DNA from: Nitrosotalea devaniterrae
GTDB lineage: Archaea; Thermoproteota; Nitrososphaeria; Nitrososphaerales; Nitrosopumilaceae
Reading direction: 5' to 3'
NCBI GenBank assembly: GCA_900065925.1
Contig: LN890280.1
Span: forward strand, 798,451 to 862,450
DNA length: 64,000 nt
In this document: piece by piece, positions 46,840-53,602 of the stretch
How the letters are laid out: each line of letters starts with the position of its first letter
How positions within the stretch are numbered: position 1 is the first letter of the stretch
The notes under the pieces: generated by a model
What the model was told of the DNA's origin: nothing
The model's database searches: none
What the model saw: the letters and a program-made list of their open reading frames with translations, nothing else
Made by a program: the position numbers and the translations under genes

Positions 46840-47532
46840 ATGAAATCATACTTTATCACTGCAACTGATACAGGTGTTGGAAAAACAACAGTTACTGCGG
46901 CACTTGCTTCATGCATTAGAAAACTTGGAGTAGATGTTGGTGTGATGAAACCTGTAGCAACTGGAGTATTGCAAAAGACCGGTTTCAAATCATCTGATGT
47001 ATCTGTCTTGTATCATGCAGCAGGTGTGCATGACACAGAAGATGAAATAAATCCTGTATTTATGCCACTTCCTGTCTCTCCGTATGATGCAAGCAAGGCA
47101 CTTGATATACAATTTGATAAAAAAGTGATCTTTGAACAGTTTGCAAAATTACAAAACAGACACCAGATGATGCTAGTTGAGGGAATAGGCGGTATTCTGA
47201 CTCCTCTGACTAGAGATTACTTTGTAGCAGATTTGATAAAAGACATGGGCCTTGAGACTATAATCATTACACGGTCAACACTTGGGACTCTAAATCACAC
47301 CATGATGACAGTCAAGACATGTCTTGATAATGAAATTCCAGTCAAGGGAATACTTGTCAATAATTATGACGAAAATGGTGGACCTGAAGAAAAGAATGCA
47401 CCACTTACAATACACGAAATTACAAATATTCCAATCTTGGGAGTGTTACCGTTTATCAAATATTATGACAATCCTGAGATGATGGTATCACATGTTGAAA
47501 AAAATATTGATATAAAATCTCTTATATCTTGA
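46840..47532 (+). CDS. bioD: Dethiobiotin synthetase BioD
   Basis: 230 aa. P-loop variant SYFITATDTGVGKTTVTAAL at the N-terminus, KPVATGVLQ, VEGIGGILTPLTRDYF and ITRSTLGTLNHTMMTVK. Closes the ureido ring of dethiobiotin with CO2 and ATP. Converges with the gene at 47522 and overlaps it by 11 nt. Confidence 0.93.
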   Translation: MKSYFITATDTGVGKTTVTAALASCIRKLGVDVGVMKPVATGVLQKTGFKSSDVSVLYHAAGVHDTEDEINPVFMPLPVSPYDASKALDIQFDKKVIFEQFAKLQNRHQMMLVEGIGGILTPLTRDYFVADLIKDMGLETIIITRSTLGTLNHTMMTVKTCLDNEIPVKGILVNNYDENGGPEEKNAPLTIHEITNIPILGVLPFIKYYDNPEMMVSHVEKNIDIKSLIS

Positions 47533-48103
47533 AGATCTTTAGCTTGGATTGTTTTTTACCTGATGTAAAACCAATCAAGTCATTTATTATGTTTGAAAAC
47601 GTCATGGATCCTTTGAGTGTGTATGTTTTTGAATCAAGTGGAATGTCGTTTTCAAGAACAACCCATATGTTGTTCTGATTTGGTTGGATTTTTTTCATCT
47701 TTTCAACTTGAGATTTAATTATATTGATATCACCTGTCTTTGGAAAATAAATAACAATGACATCCTGTGGTGATGACCCAAGTGTTACTGTATCCGGAAC
47801 TGCAATATCAATGTCAACTGATTGGAACACAGTTTTGCGTTTGCTTGGAATCATGGCTGCAGTGAGCAAAAAGTGCATTATTCCCTCAGAGATTGTGACA
47901 GGTGTATCAGGTTTTACATCCTCTTTTTCTATCTTTGACAAGCATTGCTCAAAGATGTTCTTTATGACATCTACACTCTCACCCTGGACTATATCTGAGA
48001 GTAGTCTGTGTTCTCCATACTCTGAGATGGCATTGTGCAAAATCTCGCTTAATTCCAAGACATCCTTACTTGGGATATCGTAAATTAAAGTTATGATTGG
48101 CAA
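47522..48103 (-). CDS. Conserved hypothetical protein, 193 aa
   Basis: Not recognised. MPIITLIYDIPSKDVLELSE start; mixed alpha/beta with a basic C-terminus (GFTSGKKQSKLKIFKI). The segment PQDVIVIYFPKTGDINIIKS suggests a Rossmann-like strand-turn. Divergent from the PII-cyclase gene with about 70 nt between, so a shared control region is possible. Confidence 0.55.
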   Translation of the reverse strand: MPIITLIYDIPSKDVLELSEILHNAISEYGEHRLLSDIVQGESVDVIKNIFEQCLSKIEKEDVKPDTPVTISEGIMHFLLTAAMIPSKRKTVFQSVDIDIAVPDTVTLGSSPQDVIVIYFPKTGDINIIKSQVEKMKKIQPNQNNIWVVLENDIPLDSKTYTLKGSMTFSNIINDLIGFTSGKKQSKLKIFKI

Positions 48104-48172: not shown

Positions 48173-49450
48173 ATGATCCGAATCGAAGCCGAGTTGCCAC
48201 GAAATGATTTGGCTGCTGTAACTGACGCGCTTGACATGATGGGAATTACTGTAAATATCACGAAAGCAAAAAGCAGAGGAACCACAGTTGGCTCTGAAGT
48301 TCATGCAGCAAAAGGTACTGGCATGTACAGATCTGAATTTCGGGACAAATTCATACTGCAGACAACTGTATCTGACAACTCTGAGCATGATGTAATTGAA
48401 GTAATACGATCAAACTCTAACACTGGAAAAATTTCAATATTTCCAATCTCTCGTGTAATTGACATTAGTTCTGGAGTTGAAAATGAACAAGGACTTGCCT
48501 TAAGCGAATACGATAGTGTGATACTAATTGCAGCAAAAAAACAAGAAACATCTTTTCCATTTGGCCTGACAACTAGCAAAGTAAAACTTGAACCACAGGC
48601 AATTGAGGGAGAAAAGGGATACTATGATGTAATAGAAAAAAAGTTTGTTCCACTTGAAAACTTGGAATCTGTAATTGCTCAAGTAAAACCTATTGAAAAA
48701 TTTCAAATCATGACACCTGATGATGCATTTTTGATTCAAAGTCTGACTAGAATCCAGAGAAACTTTTCTTTATACAAAAGAAAACAAAGCGATTCCTACT
48801 CTCAGGCATTTCTCAAGTATATATCAAACAGATTTCTGAGTCTGTGGCCTGAAAATGAGATTAACACTGCAGTTCTCTATGTTGACATCGTTGGATCTAC
48901 TAAGATTGCAACCTCTCTTAGCTCAGAAGAACTCTCTGGTCTCATCAAGGTCTTCTCTGAAGAGATGGCAGTTGTGGTGTCAAAGCATGCAGGGTTTGTA
49001 CTCAAATATGCAGGTGATGCAGTGATTGCATTTTTCCCAGAGCTTAAAGATTTTGGAAACATGGCAGAAAATGCTGTACGATGTGCACGGTCAATGAACA
49101 TGCTTGTGAACCATTCGTTGAATCCCATGTTTGCAAGTTTTGGATTGCCAAAAATTAACGTAAGAATAGGAATTGATGTTGGTAAAAACAGGATTGTAGT
49201 TTTAGGTTCCGAGCCTGATTTGATAGGACACAGCATAACAATTGCTTCAAAAATTTTACCACTTGCTCAACCCAATCAAATGACAATAGGAGAGGAAACA
49301 TACAAAATGTTGTCACAAGAAATGGCAGTCCAGTTTATGAAAATTGATCCTCAGGATAAGCGATGGAATTACAATCACCCTACTACGGGAAAAATATACC
49401 CCATATATTTTTCAATTCCTGTGATGCAGATATCAAATCGTGGAAATTAA
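48173..49450 (+). CDS. PII-like domain fused to class III nucleotidyl cyclase
   Basis: 425 aa. Residues 1-108 align with PII (GlnB): MIRIEAELPRNDLAAVTDAL, YRSEFRDKFILQTTVSDNSE and NTGKISIFPISRVIDISSG, but the GDG after TGKI and the two Arg of the ATP site are missing. Residues about 228-415 are a class III cyclase: metal Asp238 (YVDIVGST) and Asp282 (KYAGDAVIAFFP), adenine-selecting Lys278 and Asp349. The transition-state Asn and Arg are Thr356 and Lys360 (IGHSITIASK). A central linker (109-227) is unassigned. Soluble. Likely cAMP synthesis or a sensor under nitrogen-type control (inference). Confidence 0.75.
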   Translation: MIRIEAELPRNDLAAVTDALDMMGITVNITKAKSRGTTVGSEVHAAKGTGMYRSEFRDKFILQTTVSDNSEHDVIEVIRSNSNTGKISIFPISRVIDISSGVENEQGLALSEYDSVILIAAKKQETSFPFGLTTSKVKLEPQAIEGEKGYYDVIEKKFVPLENLESVIAQVKPIEKFQIMTPDDAFLIQSLTRIQRNFSLYKRKQSDSYSQAFLKYISNRFLSLWPENEINTAVLYVDIVGSTKIATSLSSEELSGLIKVFSEEMAVVVSKHAGFVLKYAGDAVIAFFPELKDFGNMAENAVRCARSMNMLVNHSLNPMFASFGLPKINVRIGIDVGKNRIVVLGSEPDLIGHSITIASKILPLAQPNQMTIGEETYKMLSQEMAVQFMKIDPQDKRWNYNHPTTGKIYPIYFSIPVMQISNRGN

Positions 49451-51854: not shown

Positions 51855-51989
51855 GCTGATGCATAATCTGTTTTAAAAATAGTTATCGAGTGGGCATGGT
51901 TTTCATATTTTGGTTATTTTCACATGTTACACTATGTCATTTGTAAAAGCTTCCTCTTCTTTAAATACAATTTTCCAGATTTTCACGTG

Positions 51990-52724
51990 ATGGATGAAGT
52001 AATTGAGGTCAGAACTGGAATTCCAGGATTTGACTCTGTATTGGCTGGAGGACTAAAACAAGGAAAGACAATATCATTGTCAGGACCACCTGGCAGCGGC
52101 AAGACTACATTTGCAATGCAATTTCTATATTCTGGTGCAAAAGATTTTGATGAGTCTGGAATTTTTGTAACACTTTCACAAAGTCCATCTGAAATAAAAA
52201 ATGACTGCAAATTGCTTGGATGGGATATTCAAAAATTAATTGATGCAGGTCAGTTGATGATTATTGATGCAAGACCTTTCAAGAAAAAAGAGGGCTTTAT
52301 TGCATTGGATGAGTCCTTTTACCATGGAGAACCGTTGCCGTTTATGCACCTTACACAACTCATACTTAGCAGCATAAAAAAAATAGGTGCAAAGCGCGTT
52401 GTCGTTGACTCGCTTACAGTTCTTACCTTACAGTATGTGAATAATTTCTATATCAGGCAGGGTCTACAAGGCTTAGTCTATGCACTAGAAGATCAAAACT
52501 GCAGGTCCATATTAATTTCAGAAGTGGATTCATATGAAAAATCTCCTGTTGAATGGTATGTATCCTCTGGAGTAATATTGCTGTGTCATGTACGAAAAGA
52601 ATATTCAATGGAGCGAACAATCCAAGTTCTCAAGATGCGAGGTTCAAAACACAGTGAACAAATTTTTCCAATAAAACTAAATGAAATGGGTATCCAGATT
52701 GTGTATCCTAAAATGATGTCGTAG
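51990..52724 (+). CDS. KaiC/RadA-like ATPase, single domain
   Basis: 244 aa from ATG 51990 (MDEVIEVRTGIPGFD); a CTTTAAATAC box at about 51960-51969 lies 25 nt upstream, supporting a leaderless start here. Walker A LSGPPGSGKTTFAMQ, Walker B RVVVDSLTVLT, then SEVDSYEKSP and the C-terminal VLKMRGSKHSEQIFPIKL typical of KaiC-like archaeal ATPases. Function unknown: signalling or a filament regulator are both possible. Convergent with the TrmB regulator. Confidence 0.8.
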   Translation: MDEVIEVRTGIPGFDSVLAGGLKQGKTISLSGPPGSGKTTFAMQFLYSGAKDFDESGIFVTLSQSPSEIKNDCKLLGWDIQKLIDAGQLMIIDARPFKKKEGFIALDESFYHGEPLPFMHLTQLILSSIKKIGAKRVVVDSLTVLTLQYVNNFYIRQGLQGLVYALEDQNCRSILISEVDSYEKSPVEWYVSSGVILLCHVRKEYSMERTIQVLKMRGSKHSEQIFPIKLNEMGIQIVYPKMMS

Positions 52725-52726
52725 GT

Positions 52727-53602
52727 TTACACGTGCACGTTCTCAGATGTGGACCAAAACAAGTCAAAAAGTGTCTTCATGGAATACACCAATGTTTCTG
52801 AATCTGTCCACATGGCATTCATTTGCTGTGATGTCTGGTTTGCATTTTTGATAAAATGAATTATTTCCCTGCCGTCTTTTATGAGAAAACAGAGATTGTC
52901 ATGTACTCCTGATGGAATCCTTCTTATCTTTGATCTGTCCATGTCATCAAAAATGTATGATGCGTTTTCAGAAATAGATGATAGTAATTTGAAATTAATC
53001 TTAGAGTCTTCAAAATTTTCAAGATGATTTGCATGGTAGAATTTTAAAAAGTCTTTTTCTGCACCTAATATGAGAAATTCACTGTTTGTACTTTTGATCA
53101 TTTCTTTTATCTTGCTGTTTATTTGGTTAGTTCCCTCAAGCATTTGGAATTTTTCTTCTCTGGTTTCCTGAACTGAATTAAATTCCGGAATGGAATCCCA
53201 CAGTTTTTTTATTTCATTTTCTTGACTCTCCAGGGTATTGACTCGTTCTTTTTCTGCATTGACAAGAACCCATATTGCTTTATTCAACGGCTCTGCTGAG
53301 AATCTAGTAGGATGCTGAAACGTTGCTGATACCAGTCCTTTGTTTTGTAATGTAGTTAGTAAGTGATATGTTTCAGTTCTTGGCATCTTTAGTGCCTTGC
53401 ATACTTCAGGAGCTGTCTTGGAGCCATATTTTCCCAAGTAGATGTAGACCTTGCTTTGGTTTGCTGTGAGTCCAAATTTTGCAAGTTCATCTTTTAGTTT
53501 GTCACATGTTATCTTTTGTTCGTATCTGACAGAGCCTGAATTTGCATCAAAGATTGATACTGAAAGTTCATCTTCTTTCATTTCCAAATGTGGGTCCATC
53601 AT
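52727..53602 (-). CDS. TrmB-family transcriptional regulator
   Basis: 291 aa. A winged helix near residues 35-100 (ELAKFGLTANQSKVYIYLGK, APEVCKALKMPRTETYHLLT, LQNKGLVSATFQHPTRFSAE) is followed by a coiled-coil linker (EKERVNTLESQENEIKKLWD) and a C-terminal sensor-like domain (FLILGAEKDFLKFYHANHLE). TrmB proteins regulate sugar and other metabolic genes in archaea; ligand unknown. A 9+9 bp dyad lies 115 nt upstream. Confidence 0.82.
   Translation of the reverse strand: MMDPHLEMKEDELSVSIFDANSGSVRYEQKITCDKLKDELAKFGLTANQSKVYIYLGKYGSKTAPEVCKALKMPRTETYHLLTTLQNKGLVSATFQHPTRFSAEPLNKAIWVLVNAEKERVNTLESQENEIKKLWDSIPEFNSVQETREEKFQMLEGTNQINSKIKEMIKSTNSEFLILGAEKDFLKFYHANHLENFEDSKINFKLLSSISENASYIFDDMDRSKIRRIPSGVHDNLCFLIKDGREIIHFIKNANQTSQQMNAMWTDSETLVYSMKTLFDLFWSTSENVHV

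Follow-up and report, generated by a model that had tools for sequence, protein, structure and literature searches.

The protein encoded by a single gene at positions 48173–49450 (+ strand) of the 64,000-nucleotide stretch of DNA analyzed here (the window) joins a PII domain to a class III cyclase domain. With moderate confidence, we read it as a PII-gated cyclase, probably of the adenylyl type. The open reading frame has an ATG start and 425 codons for amino acids, and it is supported by a 21-row ortholog alignment and a conserved locus. The PII domain (residues 1–108, 48173–48496, +; residues 2–107 for the domain proper) was assigned from profiles, Pfam, a fold match and alignment. The linker (residues 109–228, 48497–48856, +) was delimited from the ortholog alignment and its match to PII-less cyclases, and the cyclase domain with its C-terminal extension (about residues 229–415, 48857–49417, +; about residues 229–401 without the extension) from Pfam, PADLOC and a family profile. 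In favor of this reading are the PII identity by profile and fold, the class III identity, the monophyly of both halves, purifying selection, the invariance of D238, D282, K278, D349 and K360, the amt-adjacent PII genes, and a gene cluster in one other genome (G128, see below). Against it count the non-standard residues at the transition-state Asn and Arg positions, the loss of most canonical PII ligand residues, the lack of a recognizable CNBD receptor, and the position of the gene away from amt.

The host genome is a single contig of 1,805,304 bases and belongs to Nitrosotalea, an acid-loving ammonia-oxidizing soil archaeon. The locus is conserved across the genus, with bio, orf193, purE and purK genes as neighbors. 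The purE gene is convergent and downstream of the fusion gene in every genome compared, and bioD-orf193 is located upstream in most of them. No amt gene is adjacent, the neighbors being biotin and purine genes. A frame or assembly artefact as the source of the fusion is ruled out by the 21 in-frame rows and their low dN/dS. One copy is frame-broken (L081, Nitrosotalea sp. TS); as bioD, purE and purK in the same contig are also split, the break likely reflects sequencing indels. The 193-residue conserved protein (47522–48103, − strand) is encoded divergently from the fusion gene and beside bioD in most genomes of the genus, and no Pfam or NCBIfam family matches it. A few genes downstream of the fusion, a KaiC-type ATPase gene is convergent with a TrmB-type regulator gene (51924–53602 of the window).

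The fusion appears to be confined to this genus. A search of the domain architecture among relatives, as suggested with the original prediction, covered 200 genomes of the class and found full-length matches in this genus alone, in 15 of its 19 sampled genomes (including the host genome). When 85,462 species genomes were scanned with the PII half, 20 intact loci and the frame-broken one were recovered, every one of them from a record titled Nitrosotalea, Thaumarchaeota archaeon or Nitrosopumilaceae archaeon; neither search found a fusion outside the genus. The scan used sequence patterns of this Nitrososphaerota PII subfamily, and independent PII-cyclase fusions in remote phyla could therefore be missed by it. 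No plasmid record in the plasmid search carried both halves. Both trees recover the fused clade as monophyletic, with support of 100/100 for PII and 100/99 for the cyclase; in the cyclase tree, its sister is a PII-less paralog of the same genus. By these trees, the fusion has a single origin, in the Nitrosotalea lineage. Where synonymous sites are unsaturated, dN/dS between orthologs is 0.005–0.144 over the PII domain, the linker and the cyclase, with some comparisons saturated. Judged by these ratios, all parts of the protein are under strong purifying selection. In most ortholog comparisons, the two halves have accumulated amino-acid changes at similar rates, or the cyclase half has changed more slowly.

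The assignment of the N-terminal 108 residues to the PII family, made originally from the sequence of this gene, is borne out by profiles and by the predicted fold. The isolated domain scores 26.2 bits with Pfam P-II (E 1e-5, residues 2–100; cut-off 25 bits), and within the full-length protein the score is 22.7 bits (E 1.3e-4), just under the cut-off. P-II is matched by all 31 relatives of the domain, and a profile of these relatives finds PII proteins in the PDB over all 109 positions, with an E value of 2.4e-14. The AlphaFold2 model of the domain, a monomer with pLDDT 74, has the order strand-helix-strand, T-loop, strand-helix-strand. With this model, all 50 PDB matches listed by Foldseek are PII, GlnK or GlnZ proteins (E about 1e-7 to 1e-6). 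The profile match and the Foldseek result together rule out a chance similarity or another ferredoxin-like fold. The full-length model from close orthologs has a pLDDT of 44, and the structural match thus covers the PII half only.

Known PII proteins are trimers, and clefts between the subunits of the homotrimer are a feature of the family. The residues that recognize ligands in GlnB/PII, including Gln39 and Lys58 for 2-oxoglutarate, were taken from the literature (PMC8395244). The T-loop of the fused domain, HAAKGTGMYRSEF (residues 44–56), is conserved in the orthologs. The B-loop is five residues shorter, and the alignment confirms the predicted absence of GDG and of both ATP-site Arg residues. 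The Arg101 position is Asp in 48 of the 48 rows (fused and single Nitrososphaerota PII relatives), and the Arg103 position is Ser or Gly in the fused rows, so that none of the three elements of the ATP site is present. For the 2-oxoglutarate site, Gln39 is lost in all relatives and Lys58 is kept. The cleft lysines (equivalents of Lys58 and Lys90) are retained throughout the subfamily, including the fused domain.

There are also changes found exclusively in the fused clade, namely Thr29 to Asn, Val64 to Thr, and Phe92 to Ser or Thr. The Tyr51 position is Tyr in this clade (His in one row) and Phe in the single PII proteins. On the alignment, the adenine pocket of the fused domain is further altered beyond the losses common to the subfamily. 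These losses and clade-specific changes suggest that the ligand has probably changed or that binding has been lost, and canonical ATP/ADP/2-oxoglutarate sensing by this domain appears unlikely. The domain might serve for oligomerization or docking only, neither sensing a ligand nor controlling the cyclase, as the B-loop deletion, the Asp at R101, the loss of R103 and Q39, and the T29 and F92 changes would allow. We consider this improbable, however, as the T-loop and the cleft lysines are conserved and purifying selection acts on the PII half; moreover, PII-like proteins, SbtB among them, use different side chains to bind adenyl nucleotides (PMC10117731).

Four further PII genes are located in the same genome. 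The nearest relatives of the fused domain among them are a tandem pair (G000:C1:977310-978014), with 39–40% identity over the whole domain, and this pair is divergent from an amt gene. An amt gene adjoins a stand-alone, B-loop-less PII gene in 24 of the 27 loci fetched, and the other three loci are near a contig end. The stand-alone proteins of this Nitrososphaerota subfamily, the Amt-linked, GlnK-like PII proteins of ammonia-oxidizing archaea, share with the fused domain the HA(A/S)KGTE T-loop, the five missing B-loop residues, Asp for Arg101 and the loss of Gln39. They differ from it in being unfused, in keeping the equivalents of Thr29 and Phe92, and in having Phe at the Tyr51 position. These features place the PII half in this usually Amt-adjacent subfamily, and indicate that the B-loop and both ATP-site Arg residues were lost in the subfamily before the fusion arose. 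A 490-residue open frame in another genome (G029:C94) at first looked like a second fusion, but it lies in GC-rich DNA and is in fact a stand-alone PII beside Amt. Elsewhere in the host genome (L037:361-1788, near 330 kb of G000), the gene of an SbtA-type bicarbonate transporter (PF05982, E 1e-102) is followed by an adjoining short PII gene, an SbtAB-like pair.

The second half was predicted to be a class III cyclase, and the profiles agree. Pfam Guanylate_cyc (PF00211) matches residues 231–388 with an E value of 7e-12, and a profile of the cyclase family finds CyaB and CyaC with E values of about 1e-19 to 1e-18. The roles of the metal Asp residues, the adenine-selecting Lys and Asp, and the transition-state Asn and Arg are established for class III cyclases. 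Alignments with orthologs and homologs put the first and second metal-binding Asp at D238 (codon 48884–48886, +) and D282 (49016–49018, +), and the adenine-selecting Lys and Asp positions at K278 (49004–49006, +) and D349 (49217–49219, +), in agreement with the original assignments. In place of the transition-state Asn and Arg, the protein has T356 and K360 (codons 49238–49252, +, from T356 through K360), again as predicted. D238, K278, D282, D349 and K360 are invariant in the 21 orthologs, and residue 356 is Thr, with Ser in one of them. In comparison, CyaB and CyaC (PDB 3r5g, 1wc1) have the same catalytic core, metal Asp pair and adenine Lys, but retain the standard transition-state Asn and Arg and carry other N-terminal regulators.

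The description of these catalytic residues as altered holds in that T356 and K360 are non-standard, but this is a trait of the lineage and does not mark out this protein as degenerate. In all 33 archaeal rows, among them two cyclases of haloarchaea and PII-less relatives drawn from several families of the order, Lys occupies the Arg position; the Asn position holds N, S or T. Every homolog tabulated has the metal Asp pair. With this and the PII fold of the N-terminal half, the original prediction withstood both of the checks named as able to refute it. K278 and D349 occur throughout the Nitrososphaeria rows, and the two haloarchaeal rows deviate at these positions. Since Lys for Arg is common to every archaeal homolog examined, it is a mark of the family, and decay of the cyclase half is not favored.

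Alternatively, the cyclase half could be a catalytically dead receptor: on binding ATP or a cyclic nucleotide it would signal through its conformation, and the PII half would be the output, docking on a partner. The non-standard Asn and Arg positions, the genus without a recognizable CNBD receptor, and a conserved T-loop suited to an output role would all be consistent with this. Both metal Asp residues are important for catalysis, however, and they are invariant in the orthologs and kept in the homologs; the cyclase half also changes no faster than about the PII-half rate in most comparisons. We regard a dead receptor as possible but doubtful.

The best profile score for the cyclase half comes from a PADLOC model of Pycsar PycC (PDLC02367, 88 bits, E 1.6e-25), above that of Pfam Guanylate_cyc, and the closest plasmid homolog adjoins a gene annotated as a Pycsar effector. 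The protein might therefore be a pyrimidine (Pycsar-type) or other non-cAMP cyclase with cUMP or cCMP as its product, possibly derived from a defense gene. PycC profiles, however, also match an ordinary cyclase paralog of the same genome. Moreover, the adenylyl-type K278 and D349 are retained. In AnPycC, the base-selecting Lys104, the pyrimidine-selecting Lys of clade D, precedes the second metal Asp by two residues (PMC11224242), and the equivalent residue here is A280, with Thr in some orthologs. The fusion protein also differs from PycC in having a PII domain, and its gene has no effector gene beside it. Unlike a mobile defense system, the gene has a fixed place in the chromosome, surrounded by housekeeping genes. 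A Pycsar-type product thus appears quite unlikely.

The linker, a conserved part that the original prediction does not mention, is shared with the PII-less cyclases of Nitrososphaeria. It contains a conserved motif, GYYD...F-(V/I)-P, that is common to these cyclases (KGYYD at residues 148–152 is invariant in the ortholog alignment), and a near-invariant, helix-like segment, DSYSQAFLKYISNRFL (residues 207–222), directly before the catalytic core. Matches of the PII-less cyclases to the fusion protein begin near residue 121. The common linker indicates that the cyclase had this stem before PII joined it. The PII-less cyclases share the catalytic set as well, including Lys for Arg. They differ in lacking a PII domain and in often having a GvpD/KaiC-type partner gene, which is absent beside the fusion. 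Five class III cyclase-like loci are present in the host genome.

In one genome (G128), a PII-less sister cyclase is clustered with a GvpD/KaiC-type ATPase, a tandem PII pair and amt, a hint of an older functional link. The link of a PII-less cyclase to PII and amt was found in this genome only, whereas the pairing of cyclase and GvpD recurs in several others. A GvpD-like gene is near the PII-less cyclase in six of the contigs examined, including those of G128 and G138. The gene of this P-loop ATPase follows or is near the cyclase gene at L110:5099-7390 (G128:C169), L113, L115, L026 and L023. The spacing is wider in L114, and the pairing spans at least two families of the order; from gene order, the pair looks like a conserved module. 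On the Haloterrigena salifodinae plasmid pHTS138 (L117:2345-4615), two divergent cyclase genes have an annotated Pycsar effector gene as their neighbor, and one of these cyclases has Asp at the expected adenine-Lys position.

As a PII-gated cyclase, the protein would be a one-protein signal converter, produced by a single fusion of an Amt-type PII to an archaeal class III cyclase. The cyclase half would dimerize and synthesize a cyclic nucleotide; the likeliest reaction is ATP to cAMP, with Lys360 standing in for the usual transition-state Arg. The PII half would oligomerize. It may use its conserved T-loop to dock on a partner, for example Amt or the stand-alone PII proteins, bind a ligand in its remodeled cleft, or do both. 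Its state would pass through linker residues 109–228 to the cyclase dimer, which would open or close in response. Joining a PII of three-fold symmetry to a two-fold cyclase suggests either a hexamer or a disruptive switch. What is signaled would be ammonium supply rather than the classical ATP/2-oxoglutarate readout. Of the sensing originally proposed, a coupling of nitrogen status to cyclic-nucleotide synthesis is plausible; energy sensing by the canonical route is unlikely, because the ATP site was lost before the fusion.

A CNBD (PF00027) was recognized neither in the host genome nor in 24 other genomes of the genus, some of them incomplete; most control genomes were positive in this search. 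The reader of the cyclic nucleotide, if one is made, would thus be something else. Cyanobacterial SbtB binds cAMP (PMC10117731), and by analogy the SbtB-like PII beside SbtA is a speculative candidate. SbtB and other PII-like binders of cAMP or c-di-AMP (PMC10117731, PMC4316997) resemble the fusion protein in reusing the PII fold for non-canonical ligands and in linking PII-like proteins to cyclic nucleotides. They differ in being stand-alone receivers of the messenger, unfused to its synthase. In such a circuit, an Amt-type PII would read ammonium and gate its own cyclase, and a PII-like protein such as the one beside the SbtA-type transporter, rather than a CRP-type receptor, would read the product. 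We consider the complete circuit a long shot.

Ammonium is both fuel and nitrogen source for ammonia-oxidizing archaea and, to our knowledge, its sensing in these organisms is poorly known. In many lineages, archaeal cyclic nucleotides have no assigned synthase (PMC8646023). No PII-cyclase protein is described in the open-license texts searched, in line with the lack of precedent noted originally, and as far as could be found, no characterization of the archaeal Lys-type class III cyclases is present in that literature. In this expanded archaeal family, Lys is what normally occupies the transition-state Arg position. With a PII domain and a cyclase in a single soluble protein, ammonium sensing and archaeal cyclic-nucleotide synthesis become approachable with one enzyme, whose putative activity could connect ammonium status straight to a second messenger. 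If the circuit from PII to cyclic nucleotide and back to PII is true, nitrogen supply would be coupled to carbon uptake in an ammonia oxidizer.
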